A program made the translations under genes and the position numbers. From assembly GCF_007744515.1 (NCBI RefSeq), contig NZ_CP036268.1:62001-126000 (forward strand): a stretch of DNA of 64,000 bases, given 5' to 3'. The first letter of the stretch is position 1; each line of letters begins with the position of its first letter. This document shows positions 54,025 to 62,325 of this stretch, in pieces. Source of the stretch: Stratiformator vulcanicus (lineage in GTDB: Bacteria > Planctomycetota > Planctomycetia > Planctomycetales > Planctomycetaceae). The notes under the pieces are model-generated. The model saw only the letters and a program-made list of their open reading frames with translations, was not told where the DNA came from and did not search any database.

Positions 54025-54690
54025 ATGAGTACCGCATTCGCCCCATCGCCGACGGTCGCCGATACCAGCGCAGCCCTGACCGCAGCCGATCTCGTTGACA
54101 AGTTCGGCCCGATCCGGCTCTCGCGTATCCGCTGGGAACCCCTTCCGGGCACGGCGACGGACGAGGACTATTTCGAGCAACTGCCGAGTTGCAAAGTCCT
54201 CGAGCTTGTCGATGGCGTTTTGGTGGAGAAGCCGAAGGGGTACGAAGAGGGGCGGTTGGCGATGCGTCTCGGCTTTCTATTGATGACGTTCATCGAAGAG
54301 CACGATCTTGGCGAATGTGTCGGCCCTGACGGGATGTTGACGATGTCGACCGACAACATTCGGCTCCCCGATGTTTCCTTTACGGCAAAGGATCGCGCTC
54401 CGAAAGATCGGTCACAGGCTGCTCCGCGGATCGCACCCAATCTTTGTGTCGAGATCCTCAGCCCGAGCAATACGAAGCGGGAAATCGAAAATAAAGTTGC
54501 CGAGTTCTTCGCCTCCGGTGTCGACGTTGTGTGGATCATTGACCCAAAGGCGAAGTCGGCCCTCATTTACCGCGACGGGCAGATTGTCGATACGCTCGAT
54601 GAGGCCGGAGTGTTAAAGGGCGAAGGACCGCTCGCCGGATTTGAACTCTCCCTCTCGGAACTGTTTCGAATGCCCGATGGCCGGCCGTGA
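54025..54690 (+). CDS. Uma2-family putative endonuclease (DUF820), second copy
   Basis: 221 aa. Uma2 landmarks: CKVLELVDGVLVEKPKGYEE near residue 58, VGPDGMLTMSTDNIRLPDVS near 100 (with the PDVS metal site), NLCVEILSPSNTKREIENKV near 135 and FFASGVDVVWIIDPKAKSA near 155. The catalytic Asp, Glu and Lys positions are present. A Ala/Ser-rich N-terminal extension precedes the domain. The 3' end overlaps the KOW protein gene by 14 bases in another frame, so the two are probably translationally coupled. Confidence 0.85.
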   Translation: MSTAFAPSPTVADTSAALTAADLVDKFGPIRLSRIRWEPLPGTATDEDYFEQLPSCKVLELVDGVLVEKPKGYEEGRLAMRLGFLLMTFIEEHDLGECVGPDGMLTMSTDNIRLPDVSFTAKDRAPKDRSQAAPRIAPNLCVEILSPSNTKREIENKVAEFFASGVDVVWIIDPKAKSALIYRDGQIVDTLDEAGVLKGEGPLAGFELSLSELFRMPDGRP

Positions 54691-54877: not shown

Positions 54878-55038
54878 GCGGAGATAGTGTCGTTTAAGTT
54901 GTTGAATTGACTATTGCATTTGCACAATATTTTCAGCCGTCAGCCTGTCATCGACGACACCGTTTCGACCTGCGTCTTTTAATACGACGTGGACGCGTGG
55001 GCAAAGCATTCATTTCAGTTTCGGCCGTAGGATGAACG

Positions 55039-55497
55039 ATGAGACAATCTGAAGAGGGACAATCAAGGTTGTGTGCGCATGTTCCTGTAACACAGTTTGC
55101 GGCACCAGTGTTCCCTGATATCGACTTCCACAATGTGGGGGAGAGCGAAGCGAAATGGGTTAACCGCGGCGCTCTTACTATTCAAGCAGAGACGACAAGT
55201 GGTGAAGTTACCTTGCGCTTCGAACAGGTTATGCAATTACGCGTCACTGCATGGGAGGTATACGAAGTTTTGCATGACCTCACCGGCTCCACCGATCCGA
55301 TTCGTTCCGAACGATGGGATACCGTGCTGGCATTAGAGGAGTCCAAATGGATTCAAGAGAGCGGCGACATCGCAACGATGCGCAACCACGCGTTCCCGGA
55401 ACAGATCAATCATTTTATAGTCCCGCTTCCAGATTTTGTCTGGGACGTTGCTGCAACAACTGTTGAAATCATAAACAATGATTTAGCGAAGCAGTGA
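55039..55497 (+). CDS. Hypothetical protein
   Basis: 152 aa, no recognised family. The sequence is mixed alpha/beta (ALTIQAETTSGEVTLRFEQV, LRVTAWEVYEVLHDLTG, RSERWDTVLALEESKWIQ, FIVPLPDFVWDVAATTVEII) and soluble. Its lower GC and use of TTA/ATA-type codons differ from its neighbours, a hint of recent acquisition. Confidence 0.65.
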   Translation: MRQSEEGQSRLCAHVPVTQFAAPVFPDIDFHNVGESEAKWVNRGALTIQAETTSGEVTLRFEQVMQLRVTAWEVYEVLHDLTGSTDPIRSERWDTVLALEESKWIQESGDIATMRNHAFPEQINHFIVPLPDFVWDVAATTVEIINNDLAKQ

Positions 55498-55622
55498 TTT
55501 AGGAAATAAGAAAAAGAGCGCGAAGTTGATTCCACAGTCGGTGGGGACCAAGCCACAGAATCAACCGGATGAAGCCGTTCAATTCATCGAATCGACCATC
55601 GCCGTCGCACGATCGGCCGTAC

Positions 55623-56969
55623 TTAACGATTTCGCAGGCGATCGAGGCCGTCGCGGATTGCGTCGAAGATTTCGTCGGCGGTCTGTCGCACCTTTTCAGT
55701 ATTAATGCCCGCGGCTTTGGCAATGGCGTCGTAGGCGGCGTCGCGGACCAGCTCAGATAGTTCGGTCGTCTGTTCGTTGGCGAACAGGCCGAGCGTTTCC
55801 GGATCGATCTTGATGTGAAATTCGATGGGAAGTCGGTCCGACTTCTCCCGTAGATGGTCGATGGCCGGGGAGAGGGCCAGCTTCAGCGGCTCCGGGATCT
55901 CCGCGGGCAGTTCGACCTCAATATTTTCGAAAACAATTTTCCAGTGGGAGTCGACCCGCGGTCGTTCTCCGAGCTCCCACTCATCGACAACGAGGATGTC
56001 GGCCCGTCCGTCTCGAAATGCCACGAACGGGCCGCCGTATTGCGAGGCGAGCAGGGCCACCGGCAACCGTCGGAAATCCCATCGCGAGCGGCGTCCCTGG
56101 GCGGTCTCGATGGTGTCGATGTCGAATGTGCTGTCTGCGATCGCACCGCTGCCACGGGAGCGAATTAAAATGTCGATCAGCCAGGTTCTTGCGGAGAGTT
56201 CTTCGATGTTAAATTCTTCAACCGCCAGCTCACCGCGGTAGGTTGACCCGCGGCGCGAAATTCTCAGGTCGAGCCGGGCGTCTTCGATATGCACGTTGCG
56301 GGCGCGAAATTCGGGCTGCTCGATCGAGAAGGCAGACCCCATTGGTTGCTGCAGTCGTCCCGGTGCCGGGGGAGCTTCCGGTGATTGGGTATACGTGCCG
56401 GATAGGCCTTCGAACCGCACCGTTTCGAACTCGACGGTCGACGAAAGGACCGTCCAGATATCGAGATCGACGAGCAGTCGATCGATCTCGATGTCGAAGT
56501 TGTCGCGCGGGTGCGACTCGCGACGCAGCGTGACATCGCCCAGATCGATGCGCCCGGAGAGCAAACTTCCGGTCGCCTGAGTAAAATCAATCTCGATTCC
56601 GGAGCGATCGGCGACGCCCCGGATCAGCCAGCGGGTTGTTGGCTCAAAGGCGACGGTACCGGCAATTAAGCCGCCACCCATCATGACAGCCAGCACAACT
56701 GCGGATACGGCCGAAACCCGGCCAGCAAGTCGGCTTCGATTGCCGGTTCGCTGACCGATTAAAGTCTCAAGTGGCTCCGTGGCCGTATCTGATTCGTTTT
56801 CCTCGGTCGGCAGCTCCGCCGCCTTACCGCGCTGCAACGGTAGCAGCACGAGTTGGGTGATCGTCGCAACGACGAAGACTGCCAGATCAACCAACACCAC
56901 GATCAGCGACATTGCCGCGGTGGCCGCGACCGTCAGCCAGCCGAACAGCAGCAAGACGATCGCTTCCAC
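55623..56969 (-). CDS. AsmA/TamB-like membrane protein
   Basis: 448 aa. Two N-terminal hydrophobic segments (IVLLLFGWLTVAATAAMSLI and VVLVDLAVFVVATITQLVLL) and a third helix near 85-105 (VSAVVLAVMMGGGLIAGTVA). The rest is a beta-rich repeat array typical of AsmA-family lipid-transport proteins: ATGSLLSGRIDLGDVTLRRE, RLLVDLDIWTVLSSTVEFET and FRARNVHIEDARLDLRISRR. Such proteins bridge inner and outer membranes. It is the gene downstream (minus strand) of the CsrA fusion gene, separated by 61 bases. Confidence 0.72.
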   Translation of the reverse strand: MEAIVLLLFGWLTVAATAAMSLIVVLVDLAVFVVATITQLVLLPLQRGKAAELPTEENESDTATEPLETLIGQRTGNRSRLAGRVSAVSAVVLAVMMGGGLIAGTVAFEPTTRWLIRGVADRSGIEIDFTQATGSLLSGRIDLGDVTLRRESHPRDNFDIEIDRLLVDLDIWTVLSSTVEFETVRFEGLSGTYTQSPEAPPAPGRLQQPMGSAFSIEQPEFRARNVHIEDARLDLRISRRGSTYRGELAVEEFNIEELSARTWLIDILIRSRGSGAIADSTFDIDTIETAQGRRSRWDFRRLPVALLASQYGGPFVAFRDGRADILVVDEWELGERPRVDSHWKIVFENIEVELPAEIPEPLKLALSPAIDHLREKSDRLPIEFHIKIDPETLGLFANEQTTELSELVRDAAYDAIAKAAGINTEKVRQTADEIFDAIRDGLDRLRNR

Positions 56970-57030
56970 CGGTTCTCCACCCGGTCTCTGTTAAGGCGAA
57001 GTCAGCCCCTTCCGCTATCGCGGGCGAAAC

Positions 57031-57795
57031 CTATACTTTCCCAGCGGCTTTCGCCGCACTGCCGATACCACGACGAACGGTCCGAATCAGTTGCTCGGCG
57101 TCGAGAGGTTTCGGGAACCAGGCATCGAATTCGTCCGCATCGGCAGTCCGATCTGCGCCGGTCACCGCGACGACTTTGATTCCTTCGAATCTGCTGTCGC
57201 TGCGGATAGCCTCGAGAGTTTCTCGCCCGTTGCGGTTCGGCATGTTCATGTCTAGCAGCACGAGGTCGGGCTTCATTCCGCCTTCGAGTGATTCGATCGC
57301 CTTGGCACCATCGGGCACGGAATCGACCGCGAACCCGTGCGACCGCAGCAACGAGGCGAGCAATTCTCGTTCGTTGTCTTCATCCTCGACCACAAGCAGG
57401 CGAACCTCTCGATTGGAGGGCGCTTCGCCTTGCGGCTGACCAGTACCGCTGGCAAAGGAGTCGAGCTTGCCCATCTCGGTGAAGACCATGTCCAGTGTCT
57501 TCGCCGCTGCTTCTTCCTGGCCCAATTCCTGTTGGCGTTGGAAGAGCTTCAAGGCCAGACCGAGCGTATTAAGCCGGTTCTTCAATTCGTGGCGTTCGGT
57601 CTTAGTGCGGAGTGTCCGCTCAGCGAACGCTTCCAAATCCTCCGGCCCGAGCGTTTCGGGGCGGGCGACGGTGACATCTTTCGGGGCGGCGATACCGAGT
57701 CGAACTCGATTCGTGCCCGCCTGACAGACTTCAACTTTGATTCCGAGGTGCGGAAACAGCACCTGTTCGCCGACACGGCGTGAGAGTACGAGCAT
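57031..57795 (-). CDS. CsrA domain fused to a response-regulator receiver domain
   Basis: 254 aa. Residues 1-52 are a CsrA domain: MLVLSRRVGEQVLFPHLGIK, VRLGIAAPKDVTVARPE, with the L4, R6 and R44-equivalent RNA-contact positions kept. Residues 62-115 form a helical hairpin (TERHELKNRLNTLGLALKLF, AAKTLDMVFTEMGKL) like the dimerisation/His phosphotransfer helices of histidine kinases, with a His before ELKN. Residues 130-245 are a receiver domain: acidic pocket VVEDEDNERE, phosphoacceptor Asp in DLVLLDMNMPNRNG, Thr in VVAVTGAD and Lys in AWFPKPLD. The combination suggests phosphorylation-controlled RNA binding. Divergent from the hybrid kinase gene. Confidence 0.85.
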   Translation of the reverse strand: MLVLSRRVGEQVLFPHLGIKVEVCQAGTNRVRLGIAAPKDVTVARPETLGPEDLEAFAERTLRTKTERHELKNRLNTLGLALKLFQRQQELGQEEAAAKTLDMVFTEMGKLDSFASGTGQPQGEAPSNREVRLLVVEDEDNERELLASLLRSHGFAVDSVPDGAKAIESLEGGMKPDLVLLDMNMPNRNGRETLEAIRSDSRFEGIKVVAVTGADRTADADEFDAWFPKPLDAEQLIRTVRRGIGSAAKAAGKV

Positions 57796-58125
57796 TCCAG
57801 ATCCCTCCTTTGATCTGTCCGACCACGGTTGCGGTCAGAGATGTCCGCTATTGGAAACCTGCATCCTCTTCAATCAGGTTTTTGTTGGTACGAGAATAGC
57901 TCGGGGAATTCATCCGTCTCCGGGGTTGCATCACCAAACATCTCGTCGCAGAATTCTCACCTGATCGAGTTGACTTGTCGAGTCCGCTTTTCACTTTCGC
58001 TGGCGATATTTGGCAAATATCAGGGTTTACCCCAGTGAAATGGTCAGCGAAGACTCGCTGGACACCTCGAAAAGTGCGACAACTGCTCGGTTGCGGACGG
58101 CCTGTCCCGCGGAAAGGATTCTGCA
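57796..58125. other. 330-base divergent control region with a 17-bp operator-like palindrome
   Basis: Between the CsrA-REC gene and the hybrid histidine kinase. It contains GATATTTG-G-CAAATATC at 58005-58021, a perfect 8-bp inverted repeat about 105 bases before the kinase start. No other clear signal was found by eye. Confidence 0.5.
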
Positions 58126-59715
58126 TTGCCGAATAACGAACGTCTGTGGAAAGAGGCGCGGCGCTATGGTTTCGCCGCCTCCGCCACGCTCATAGCAACA
58201 TGGCTCCGGCTACTCGCAGCACCGCTGCTCGATGACCGCGTCCCGTTCGGATTCTTCTTCCTCTCCGTTATCTTAACGGCGTGGCGCTGCGGAACCGGTC
58301 CGGCGGTTTTCGCGGTGATCTTTGGGATCGCGTTGGTCGACGTATTCGTCATTCCGACGCATTACGCCACGATCGTCAATAGCCCGGCTGATTCCCTCGC
58401 TCTACTCGTCTATGCCTTCGCAACGCTCGTGACCATTGCGCTGTTCGAGCGGACAAAAAACCAGCGGCGAGCCGCTGAGCAAAATGCGGCCGAAATCGCA
58501 AAATTAAATGAAAACTTAAGAGAAGCGGCGCAGAAAAAAGACGAGTTCATGGCGCTGCTCGCCCACGAACTACGCAACCCGCTCGCGCCGCTGCGATCGG
58601 GAATCGAGCTGCTCGACCGACCCGAAATCGCGTGGCGCCAAGGGGAGGAGATCCTCAATCGAATGCGAAGGCAGATGCGGCATCTGGTTCGCATCGTCGA
58701 CGATCTGCTCGACGTCTCACGATTTCTGCAGGGGACGCTCAGGCTCAATCGCAATGTCGTCGATCTGCGGACGATCGTGCGAGATGCGATTGAAATGACG
58801 CAACCGGAAATCGATCGCCAGCAGCATGAACTGAAGTTCTTAAGGCCTCCTCTCCCAATTTACATTTACGCCGACATGGTGCGGTTGGTTCAAATCGTAT
58901 CCAATTTGCTCACGAATGCCGCCAAGTACACTCCCCGATGCGGATTGATTGTGGTCACACTCGATCGCAACGGCGGACAGGCCGTCCTGCAGGTTGCCGA
59001 CAACGGAATCGGAATCGCGAATTCCGATCGCGATAAAATCTTTGAATTGTTCGGGCAGGCGTCCGGAGCGCGGGTGGCGAAAGAAGGTGGGCTCGGGCTG
59101 GGCCTGGCTCTAGTGCGTCATCTGACCGACATGCACGATGGCGTCGTCGAAGCCGAAAGCGACGGACCCGGATGCGGGGCGACGTTCCGGATTCGGCTTC
59201 CGCTGGCCACACCGTCGCAATTGGCCGAACGTGTCATTCCCGATGAAACCTTGGTGAGCAAGACCAAGTCGAGCGAGCCGGAAGGCGTTGCGTCCCAGTC
59301 GCTGCAATCGCAGCCGATCCCGGTGAGTGGGTCGGACGGCGAAGCCCTTCGCGTTTTGATTGTCGACGACAATGTCGATGCGGCCGAGACGCTCGGCACC
59401 CTGCTCTCCCTCGACGGATACGAGACGCAGCACGTTTTTGACGGCGTCAACGCGATCGACGCCGTCGAGGAATTTCAGCCCGCGGCGGTACTGCTCGACC
59501 TCGGCATGCCCGGTATGGACGGCTACGAAGTCGCCCGCCGGATGCGGCAGCTTCCCGAAGGCCGCCAATTGAAGATCATTGCCGTCACCGGATGGGGCGG
59601 TGAGGAAGACCGCCGACGCTCGGCCGAGGCCGGATTCGACGAGCACTTCGCCAAGCCGGTCGACCCGGCCATGATCGCCGCATTCCTGTCGGATCGCGAA
59701 GCCGTCCCGCGGTGA
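58126..59715 (+). CDS. Hybrid histidine kinase (DUF4118-HisKA-HATPase-REC)
   Basis: 529 aa, TTG start. An N-terminal DUF4118-like membrane sensor shows LIATWLRLLAAPLLDDRVPF, FFFLSVILTAWRCGTGPAVF and VIFGIALVDVFVIPTHYATI. A coiled linker precedes HisKA (FMALLAHELRNPLAPLRSGI, phospho-His in AHELRN) and the HATPase with N box (LTNAAKYTPRCGLIV), G1 (DNGIGIANSDRDKIFELFGQ) and G2 (GLGLGLALVRHL). The C-terminal receiver domain has LIVDDNVDAAETLGTLL, LLDLGMPGMDGYEVA, IAVTGWGGEEDR and AKPVD. It is divergent from the CsrA-REC gene, which is a plausible phosphorylation partner. Confidence 0.93.
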   Translation: MPNNERLWKEARRYGFAASATLIATWLRLLAAPLLDDRVPFGFFFLSVILTAWRCGTGPAVFAVIFGIALVDVFVIPTHYATIVNSPADSLALLVYAFATLVTIALFERTKNQRRAAEQNAAEIAKLNENLREAAQKKDEFMALLAHELRNPLAPLRSGIELLDRPEIAWRQGEEILNRMRRQMRHLVRIVDDLLDVSRFLQGTLRLNRNVVDLRTIVRDAIEMTQPEIDRQQHELKFLRPPLPIYIYADMVRLVQIVSNLLTNAAKYTPRCGLIVVTLDRNGGQAVLQVADNGIGIANSDRDKIFELFGQASGARVAKEGGLGLGLALVRHLTDMHDGVVEAESDGPGCGATFRIRLPLATPSQLAERVIPDETLVSKTKSSEPEGVASQSLQSQPIPVSGSDGEALRVLIVDDNVDAAETLGTLLSLDGYETQHVFDGVNAIDAVEEFQPAAVLLDLGMPGMDGYEVARRMRQLPEGRQLKIIAVTGWGGEEDRRRSAEAGFDEHFAKPVDPAMIAAFLSDREAVPR

Positions 59716-60177
59716 AGCGAGCGTTCGTAGAGCATCGATCGCCGACGATTATTCGCTTACGAGATCGTCTGTTCGCTTACGAGATCGTCCCCGAACACCG
59801 GGGCTGGCCGAAGCACCGGAACCCAATGAGGGGAATACCTGCATCCCGGGCATCTTCGGAAATTTTCTCAATGTCATATCGACAAAGTCCGATGTCGACG
59901 ATTTAATAAGTAGATACCAGTAGCCCGTCCCATCACATCTTAAGGGCGACTGAGTGAATTTGAGGGTTCTCCTCACTTGCGGGTTTTCGGCTCACAAGAA
60001 TCCATTTCTAGCGGCTCTTCTCGACTTCAAGCTGTCTCCGGTCGTTATCCGGTGCGTCGTTCGACGTGCGGGGTCGACCGACTTTGTCGTCCGGTATCGC
60101 AACAGGTTGAGGTCACTCAACCCGGCGATCACCCGGCATCTCACTTCTCGTGTCCCTGTTCTGGGAGATCGGTCCTC
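59716..60177. other. 462-base intergenic region with a short direct repeat
   Basis: Contains TTCGCTTACGAGATCGTC twice at 59752 and 59772, 20 bases apart. The remainder holds the leader of the DUF1559 gene. The plus-strand frame from 59977 leads into that gene but lacks family features before 60178. Confidence 0.5.
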
Positions 60178-61230
60178 ATGCGCATTTCATTTGTTTCGAG
60201 CCGCCGGAGGCGGCGCGGTTTCACCCTCATCGAACTGCTGGTCGTGATTGCGATCATTGCGATCTTGATCGCATTGTTGCTACCGGCAGTGCAACAGGCC
60301 CGCGAAGCGGCCAAACGAACGGAATGTAAGAACAATCTCAAACAAATCGGCTTGGCACTACACAACTACCACGACGCTCACAGCATGTTTCCGATGGGCA
60401 TGCACACCGGATCACAGGCATCAGGCGATGTCGGCCAGCGGGGCGGTTGGGGCTGGGGCGCTTACCTCCTTCCCTTTATGGAAGAGTCGGCCGTGTATGA
60501 GAATTTCACATTCGAGCAACGGTTGGGCTCTGCCGCCAACCGGAACCTGCTCGGGTCGATCGTCAAGGGCGTACACTGCCCCAGCGACGAAATTCCTAAG
60601 GTATTAAATGACCGTGTCGAGAGTGGTCCGAACGTCAACGTTTCGAATCTGACAACCAGCTATCTCGGTAACGGCGGAGCTTTCATCCACATGAGCTTCA
60701 AAGATGACGGCTCATGTGGACACCCCAGCGCAACGAATTCCATTCCGAACACCGGCGTGCTGATTCAGGACAATCCTGTGCGGTTCCGTGACATCACAGA
60801 CGGGACTTCAAACACAATTGCGGTCGGCGAAGCTGCTTGGCGATTTACGCTCAACGATCAACGTTGGTACGGCAAACCGCAGCCCGGCGGTGCGCACGGC
60901 AACTTCAGTTGGTTTGGCGTATGCGAAGACGTCGGCGGCAGCGTTTACACCTCCAAGCTGGCCGTGATGCGGGTCGGGGCGGTCCCGATTAACGAACCGG
61001 CGTCGACCAGCTCATGGAACTTCGACTTCGCATGGTGGAGTTTCTCGAGCGAGCACACCGGTGGGGCTCAGTTCTGCTTTGCCGACGGTTCGGTTCACTT
61101 CCTCAGCGAAAACATTAATCACACTCGTGAGTTCGGCTGGGGTGCCAATGGCGCTAACTTTGCCAACAATCTCGGCACCTATCAGCGGTTGATGGCTCGC
61201 AACGACGGACGTGTCGTCGGCGCATTCTGA
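60178..61230 (+). CDS. DUF1559 prepilin-like protein, copy 1
   Basis: 350 aa from ATG 60178. A basic leader [13 protein letters not shown] is cut before [20 protein letters not shown], the type IV prepilin signature with Glu5. The DUF1559 body ([33 protein letters not shown]) follows, with the H-X9-DG motif at the end ([20 protein letters not shown]). These proteins are massively amplified in planctomycetes and are presumably exported by a type II/IV system; their job is unknown. It is followed at 54 bases by a paralogue in the same orientation. Confidence 0.92.
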
Positions 61231-61284
61231 TCCGTTGATTCACGTCGCTCAATTCATCTCAAACCATCTCTCAGGACAGTCACA

Positions 61285-62325
61285 ATGAAAACCCGCATGT
61301 CAGGCCGTGGGAGTCGTCCACGCGGCTTTACACTGATCGAACTCTTGGTCGTGATCGCGATCATCGCGATCCTGATCGCACTGTTACTTCCGGCCGTCCA
61401 ACAGGCCCGTGAGGCGGCCCGCCGCAGTTCTTGTAAGAATAATCTGAAGCAGCTCGGGCTCGCGATTCACAACTATCACGACGTCCACGCCATGTTCCCG
61501 CCGGGGCAAAGTACGAATCCGGACGGTTGGGGCTGGCAGGCTCGGATCCTCCCCGGGATGGAGCAGGGCCCGCTCTACGAACAGATGAATCTCGACATTT
61601 CACTGGCCGATCCGCTGAACGTGGCGCTGGCTTCGACGGTATTGCCGAGCTTCCGCTGTCCGTCCGACCCGGCTCCGAACTTCGAAACCGATGCCGAAGG
61701 AGTCGTCACCGATCACGCGATCGGCAGTTACGCCGCTTCCGCCGGCCCCTTCTCGGACGTTCCCGGCTCTGATTTCGGCGGACGCGTCAATGTGAACGGC
61801 GCAAGTACGGCAGTGCTCTTCCCGCTCAATAACGGGTCGGCCTTCTATAAGCATGTCGCAATCAAAGACATCAGCGACGGAACTTCGAACACAATTATGG
61901 TCGGCGAAGTGACGTGGAACTTCAGCCAGAATCAACGGCTCTACGGTGGTGCGACCCAAGGACCGCAAAACGTCCAGAGCTTCGCCAGCTGGCGAAGCGG
62001 GGCGTTCCCGCCGAACGTACCTGTCGGCACCACCATTCCGACCGATTTCGGAAGTAGCGGTACGGTTGAGCAAGTCGGCTTCCACAGTCTGCATACTGGC
62101 GGTGCTCAATTCCTGCTGGCCGACGGGGCCGTCCGGTTCATCAGTGAAAATATTGAGAGCCAGGTTCCGACCGTTCCGGCATGCCATTGGGCACCGACCG
62201 GCGCGCCGTGCACGTGGTTTCTCGATGCGAGTTGGCAGACCTCGCGGAACTTCAACCGGCAGGATCTCGCCGTTTTCCAAAGGCTTCACGCCCGGAACGA
62301 TGATCTGACCGTCGGCGAGTTCTGA
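61285..62325 (+). CDS. DUF1559 prepilin-like protein, copy 2
   Basis: 346 aa. Leader KTRMSGRGSRPRG, then [20 protein letters not shown] as in copy 1. The early body is nearly the same (KNNLKQLGLAIHNYHDVHAM), and the H-X9-DG end reads HTGGAQFLLADGAVRFISEN. The central part diverges (GSYAASAGPFSDVPGSDFGG, FASWRSGAFPPNVPVGTTIP). A strong terminator at 62349 ends the two-gene unit. Confidence 0.92.
   Translation: MKTRMSGRGSRPRGFTLIELLVVIAIIAILIALLLPAVQQAREAARRSSCKNNLKQLGLAIHNYHDVHAMFPPGQSTNPDGWGWQARILPGMEQGPLYEQMNLDISLADPLNVALASTVLPSFRCPSDPAPNFETDAEGVVTDHAIGSYAASAGPFSDVPGSDFGGRVNVNGASTAVLFPLNNGSAFYKHVAIKDISDGTSNTIMVGEVTWNFSQNQRLYGGATQGPQNVQSFASWRSGAFPPNVPVGTTIPTDFGSSGTVEQVGFHSLHTGGAQFLLADGAVRFISENIESQVPTVPACHWAPTGAPCTWFLDASWQTSRNFNRQDLAVFQRLHARNDDLTVGEF

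Follow-up and report, generated by a model that had tools for sequence, protein, structure and literature searches.

The window, by which we mean the whole stretch of 64,000 nucleotides analysed, carries on its minus strand an intact open reading frame at positions 57031–57795 (stop codon included), which starts with ATG just downstream of a Shine–Dalgarno sequence and encodes a protein of 254 aa composed of a CsrA domain, a helical hairpin resembling the phosphoacceptor (DHp) domain of histidine kinases, and a receiver (REC) domain. The CsrA domain spans residues 1–48 (57652–57795, minus strand), retains L4, R6 and R45, and matched the Pfam profile PF02599 over residues 1–47, scoring 48.3 bits where the cut-off is 27. 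A sequence-only reading of this locus had announced a complete CsrA fold; the profile match bears out the assignment of the N-terminus, but "complete" is slightly too strong, since the match covers profile positions 1–46 of 53 and leaves the last ones unmatched. The protein also scored below the NCBIfam equivalog cut-offs for CsrA (PRK01712, 41.5 of 73 bits; TIGR00202, 37.6 of 70.1 bits), and with 254 aa it is not a stand-alone CsrA of about 60 aa. We take R45 to correspond to R44 of E. coli CsrA, where R6 and R44 are presumably the RNA-contact Arg residues.

The receiver domain occupies residues 131–245 (57061–57405, minus strand). As the same reading had stated, it is equipped with the phosphorylation residues: Response_reg (PF00072) matched residues 134–238 with 65.9 bits against a cut-off of 30.2, and the predicted phospho-accepting Asp, D182 (57250–57252), is accompanied by D138 and by the conserved Lys K229 (57109–57111). 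The hairpin that joins both domains was delimited to residues 65–113 (57457–57603, minus strand) by conservation, a Pfam scan and hhalign. It carries the predicted phospho-accepting His, H69 (57589–57591), and N73 (57577–57579), which form part of an H-x-x-x-N-x-L box. A Pfam search at E values up to 1 found no family between the CsrA and receiver domains of the window protein and no Hpt (PF01627) match in it, and Pfam detected no HATPase_c domain in the fusion.

On the opposite strand, the divergent gene at 58126–59715 encodes a hybrid kinase with the Pfam architecture DUF4118-HisKA-HATPase_c-REC, the predicted partner of the fusion in view of the neighbours of its homologues. Its predicted phospho-accepting His is residue 147 (58564–58566, plus strand), at HisKA position 11, and the predicted phospho-accepting Asp of its receiver is residue 458 (59497–59499, plus strand), within the REC match. 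Further genes in the vicinity encode a Uma2-family putative endonuclease (54025–54690), a 448-aa protein with sub-threshold Pfam matches only (55623–56969, minus strand; DUF7801, YdbH-like and YbaB), and two adjoining DUF1559 proteins with N-terminal methylation motifs that are pseudopilin-like (59977–62325).

Nine CsrA-like matches, the fusion included, were found in the genome to which the window belongs (loci L001–L007 and L226:6803–7093), one of them only 37 profile positions long. According to the excerpt of PMC4682653, Planctomycetes are among the bacteria that may use FliW to control CsrA; control by FliW was discarded for this genome, in which no FliW match was found.

Distribution and conservation of the fusion

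Matches starting at residue 1 were obtained in 14 of 58 relatives (59 genomes searched, counting its own), with 36–46% identity; these 14 belong to families f1, f2, f3 and f5 of the class, and a fifteenth relative, G015, had its CsrA part shown separately. Using a 15-sequence alignment as the query, we found the fusion family in 100 of 397 sampled genomes of the class (E of 1e-40 or better), in three of which (G558, G610 and G742) the match begins after the CsrA N-terminus, leaving 97. Among 392 genomes of the phylum, a match covering CsrA was present in 21, all of them in the class (a hand count of rows at E of 1e-25 or better), and the matches in other classes are confined to the receiver end. 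The fusion therefore recurs in relatives, if patchily. When a collection of genome contigs was scanned with the single fusion protein, 5 loci were recovered, none of them matching before residue 113. A relative at L025:1501–2253 has an H-x-x-x-N hairpin and a receiver-like part with no recognisable CsrA start.

Three trivial origins were discarded. A frameshift or a misassembled joint between two genes is ruled out, since more than 100 distinct homologues have the start and architecture of the window protein; a phage origin was rejected on a viral scan whose 24 loci all match from residue 113 onward; and a plasmid origin was rejected because no annotated name was CsrA among the matches listed (the best 20 of 719 plasmid rows).

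Two sets of proteins were used for the remaining analyses. One comprises 105 distinct homologues, collected with a start-motif regular expression on loci L073–L199 after removing duplicates and one false match (L153_2382); the other comprises 112 fusions that an HMM search picked out in 107 context loci, which were drawn from part of the matches of the relatives, phylum and class searches. The window protein is 26–43% identical to the other 104 members of the large alignment (median 36%). Mean pairwise identity was 0.48 in the CsrA domain, 0.43 in the receiver, 0.28 in the hairpin and 0.08–0.09 in the two spacers. The CsrA Arg residues are nearly invariant (R6 in 105/105, R45 in 104/105), as are D138 (103/105), D182 (105/105), W226 (105/105) and K229 (103/105) of the receiver. 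In the otherwise variable hairpin, the best-kept residues are H69 (95/105), N73 (92/105) and L75 (97/105), and G92 is present in 90/105. This conservation, together with the profile comparison described below, rules out that the hairpin is a plain linker. The 10 aligned proteins lacking the His still keep D182 (10/10), D138 (9/10) and K229 (8/10).

Partner kinases and the hairpin histidine

For 92 of the 112 fusions a kinase ORF lies no more than 3 kb away, and for 82 no more than 1 kb, as measured between stop-to-stop ORFs. All four orientations occur among these 82: upstream on the same strand in 31, downstream and opposed in 20, downstream on the same strand in 18, and upstream and divergent in 13. 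From the density of HATPase_c (30–59 per genome in 8 genomes of 5.2–8.3 Mb), we estimate that a kinase would fall within 3 kb by chance in about 5% of cases. An earlier and stricter single-sequence search had placed a kinase within 3 kb of 82 of 105 fusions. Only 7 of the 30 fusions with no kinase within 1 kb have an available flank shorter than this distance.

The kind of kinase found within 1 kb is associated with the presence of the hairpin His in the fusion. The nearest kinase is a hybrid for 73 of 76 His-bearing fusions (3 are not) and for 0 of 6 His-less ones. The corresponding Fisher P value of 2.4e-7 overstates this link, because the 82 fusions are not independent events and only two independent losses of the His have a kinase nearby. 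A quick tree, built with the hairpin columns included, requires at least 5 changes of the His label, and its starred branches force only 2; of the five His-less lineages, three are without a kinase within 1 kb, and the two informative ones are an eight-row clade (five rows informative) and L197.

The hybrids next to His-bearing fusions end in a receiver. All 73 stop within 40 aa of their last receiver, so there is no room for an Hpt domain behind it, and Pfam detected no Hpt in the eight partners that were scanned (window, L077, L168, L175, L096, L081, L085 and L178). Of these 73 kinases, 18 are shorter than 700 aa and 51 have 1100–1600 aa; the scanned members of the short type are DUF4118 hybrids like that of the window (window, L096 and L178), and those of the long type are CheB-CheR-PAS hybrids (L077, L081 and L085). 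A hand count of the 30 HATPase_c ORFs of the genome gave 8 with a C-terminal REC, 5 of them with an in-frame Hpt (one CheA-like) and a sixth with an Hpt encoded right beside it, which leaves two with no Hpt, the window kinase among them. The other (HATPase_c at 2222789–2223124; L224:6334–8250, minus strand) adjoins, by eye, a KaiC-like ATPase.

There are exceptions. L133 is a His-bearing fusion whose nearest kinase is receiver-less, and just before the fusion a REC-like end could be recognised by eye in another frame; in L144 and L149, also His-bearing, the receiver-less nearest kinase is over 900 bp away. For the His-less L161_12527, the search within 3 kb found a single kinase, a hybrid at 2.97 kb, and this kinase is also 1.48 kb away from a His-bearing fusion. 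Two further His-less fusions, L103_3942 and L186_12672, have as second neighbour within 1 kb a hybrid kinase that bears its own Hpt (CHASE-HK-REC-REC-Hpt); its being a hybrid speaks against the link, its Hpt in favour of a relay. Six loci (L103, L181, L182, L186, L187 and L161) contain a pair of fusions, of which one has the His and the other lacks it; a CheB-CheR-PAS kinase lies beside the His-less fusion in five of the six according to Pfam and in L161 by eye.

A four-step His-Asp-His-Asp relay accounts for this pattern better than a two-step system would: the hybrid kinases next to His-bearing fusions leave no room for an Hpt after their receiver, as expected if the second His had moved into the regulator, and the His is missing where the nearest kinase is receiver-less (six of six, in two lineages). 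The sequence-only reading had proposed a direct two-component switch on translation. Its phosphorylation input and CsrA output in a single chain are retained here, whereas its two-step form accounts for the data less well. In such a two-step scheme the kinase would phosphorylate D182 directly, the hairpin would serve only to dimerise, and the kinase receiver would act as a phosphate sink or in feedback. The His-less proteins, which keep the receiver residues (D182 in all ten) and six of which have a receiver-less kinase as nearest neighbour, point to some members in which phosphorylation probably bypasses H69; however, dimerisation alone would not need the conservation of H69, N73 and L75, and the nearest kinase of His-bearing fusions is a hybrid in 73 of 76 cases, and we consider direct phosphorylation rather unlikely as an account of the family.

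Relationship of the hairpin to kinase DHp domains

The sequence-only reading had likened the hairpin to the dimerisation segment of a histidine kinase, and the profile comparisons strengthen this likeness. Judging from these comparisons, the hairpin is a degenerate DHp domain. In a Pfam scan of alignment A2, which holds 69 of 82 representative hairpins (the 13 left out are mostly His-less or of odd length, so that the invariant His of A2 is partly due to row selection), HisKA (PF00512) was the commonest family, matching 19 of 69 at E values up to 10. The best E value was 4.9e-6; among the 29 hairpins viewed singly, the best HisKA score was 20.9 bits against a cut-off of 26.9. The window's own hairpin gave no HisKA match with Pfam. 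SPOB_a came second in the scan (6 of 69, best E value 0.014), and the remaining weak matches (XFP_N, TPR families, Caudo_TAP, YfdX and Rubrerythrin) reached at most 5 of 69 each vs the 19 of HisKA, with TPR matches of similar strength ranking second in several of the hairpins viewed singly. From the ends of single matches, the hairpin His falls near HisKA position 11, as does the His of the window kinase.

The hairpins were also compared with 97 DHp segments of kinases from the same loci. Using all rows, as was also done for the conservation counts, hhalign gave a probability of 96.7 with either the 82 or the 105 rows, whereas a reversed profile gave 1.2 and 20 column scrambles gave 0.1–1.2; in the alignment, the hairpin His is placed on the DHp His of the kinases. 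From the single sequence, AF2 gave a low-confidence model (pLDDT 59), used for the helix pattern only, with helices at residues 65–90 and 94–118. This homology and the proximity of kinases make the adjacent hybrid kinase, already singled out as the natural donor in the sequence-only reading, a likely source of the phosphoryl group.

The two groups differ in what surrounds the His. An acidic residue follows it in 45 of 95 His-bearing fusions vs 96 of 97 kinase segments; the window fusion has a Glu directly after H69. Pro at +5 is present in 92 of 97 kinase segments, and in the fusions it is outside the eight commonest residues. The acid after the DHp His is required for autophosphorylation, and because it is often missing, the pattern fits a family in which phosphotransfer was kept and the features of an autokinase were lost.

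The same residues bear on a scheme in which the hairpin, being homologous to the DHp of nearby kinases, would form mixed dimers with the partner, be phosphorylated in trans by its ATPase domain and pass the phosphate to D182, leaving the kinase receiver off the path. The frequent loss of the acid, which nearly all kinase segments keep, argues against it, and it leaves the hybrid make-up of the partners unexplained; we regard it as very unlikely.

The leader hairpin

Two bases before the start codon of the fusion ends a hairpin (57798–57817, minus strand), identified by folding and a scan of the window, with a 6-bp stem and the loop AAAGGAGG, which contains the Shine–Dalgarno sequence. A GGA exposed in a hairpin loop over the Shine–Dalgarno sequence is the classical CsrA site, so this is a putative autoregulatory site and the fusion likely controls its own synthesis through its leader. 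The folded 41-nt leader holds the hairpin, at −10.4 kcal/mol (z of −0.97), an energy that is not unusual; on both strands of the 64 kb, it is the sole ANGGA loop with a perfect stem of at least 6 bp.

The 96 of 112 leaders with ANGGA in place were compared with 155 control ORF starts chosen mechanically. An ANGGA loop closed by a stem of at least 3 bp occurred in 52/96 fusion leaders vs 22/155 controls (300 shuffles: mean 13.9, maximum 27), and one with a stem of at least 4 bp in 23/96 vs 6/155, values that shared descent inflates, as homologous leaders are not independent. With stems of at least 5 bp there was no clear excess (5/96 vs 4/155), and loops with any GGA closed by such stems were not clearly enriched either (8/112 vs a shuffle mean of 4.3 and a maximum of 10). 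In 98 leaders, 93 of them distinct, pairs anchored on the GGA exceeded the column expectation at (−3,4), 38 vs 23.0; at (−4,5), 68 vs 47.9; and at (−5,6), 69 vs 55.2; pair (−6,7) was barely above it (30 vs 25.5), and beyond it no consistent excess pairing was seen. The summed test over (−4,5), (−5,6) and (−6,7) exceeded all 2000 shuffles, and this register was the best of nine; these pairing figures, too, are inflated by shared descent.

That the CsrA part is instead a protein–protein module, which might for instance titrate other CsrA proteins in mixed dimers under the control of phosphorylation, or a relic, is conceivable given the nine CsrA-like matches of the genome and the unmatched last profile positions, but R6 and R45, whose RNA-contact role is known from E. 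coli, are kept in 105/105 and 104/105 proteins and ANGGA leader hairpins are enriched, which makes it the least probable of the readings considered.

By eye, a GGA hairpin loop also precedes the start codon of three other csrA genes in this genome, all of them stand-alone (L002, with a 7-bp stem, L003 and L006). A search of 55000–60500 against Rfam found nothing at gathering scores.

Discussion

From the architecture of the fusion, its conservation, the DHp homology, the adjacent kinases, the link between the His and the kinase receiver, and the leader hairpin, we infer that CsrA is probably the last step of a His-Asp-His-Asp phosphorelay that is autoregulated through its leader. The hybrid kinase at 58126–59715 would autophosphorylate its His and transfer the phosphate to the Asp of its own receiver. 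The hairpin of the fusion, a DHp without an ATPase domain and in the family often without the acid, would then provide the second His, H69, in a role like that of Spo0B or Hpt elsewhere, and from H69 the phosphate would pass to D182 of the fusion receiver. The phosphorylated receiver may alter the affinity of the CsrA dimer for RNA, in either direction. One probable target is its own leader, with the ANGGA hairpin over the Shine–Dalgarno sequence, so that autoregulation would be set or lifted by the relay.

With somewhat less assurance, though still leaning towards it, we extend this reading to a family across the class: relays that would end in a CsrA that shares its chain with the second His and the final Asp, that would control translation directly, with no transcription step, and tune their own leader, and in which the receiver of the kinase and the His of the regulator would be kept or lost together.

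Most known phosphorelays have a transcription factor or an enzyme as their last step, and the known control of CsrA is by decoy sRNAs or FliW. The fusions put a phosphate input and an mRNA-binding output in one chain, beside sensor kinases, some of which are CheB-CheR-PAS hybrids. If the relay reading is correct, they would offer a compact and testable case of signalling from a kinase to translation, and a natural experiment in which a phosphotransfer domain was shifted from the kinase to the regulator.

The list of RNA-binding outputs of response regulators reportedly goes back to Galperin in 2006. The pairing of REC and CsrA is already catalogued: the excerpt of PMC2222644 lists, for response regulators, the RNA-binding output domains ANTAR and CsrA, and in the table excerpted from the review PMC12471899 E. 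coli CsrA is counted as an orphan response regulator. Beyond that list and that table, the matches listed in our literature search, as far as their excerpts go, contained no study of a CsrA–receiver protein and nothing on the hairpin or phosphotransfer domain, a role in a relay or the kinase partners.

The fusion resembles CsrA/RsmA proteins in its N-terminal 47 residues, which score above the Pfam cut-off, in the RNA-contact Arg residues that it keeps and in the GGA leader hairpin over the Shine–Dalgarno sequence; it differs from them by its added phosphotransfer-like hairpin and receiver, by missing the equivalog cut-off, and by residing in a genome with no FliW match. With the response regulators of PMC2222644 it shares REC and CsrA in one chain, but its CsrA is N-terminal and a DHp-like second His lies between the domains, two features on which the excerpt of that source is silent. 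The BarA-UvrY system, which according to the excerpt of PMC4682653 governs CsrA through CsrB/C, is similar in that a phosphorylation system governs CsrA activity; it does so by transcribing decoy sRNAs, whereas in the fusion receiver and CsrA belong to one polypeptide.

Like the fusion hairpin in the proposed relay, Spo0B is a DHp-derived His domain without kinase activity that acts in a His-Asp-His-Asp relay, and SPOB_a ranked second among the families matched by the hairpins (6 of 69); unlike Spo0B, the hairpin has no second ATPase-like domain and lies in cis with the final receiver and the output. Hybrid kinases that bear an Hpt, of which there are five such ORFs in the same genome, follow the same four-step logic, but the fusion would have moved the role of the Hpt from the kinase into the regulator.
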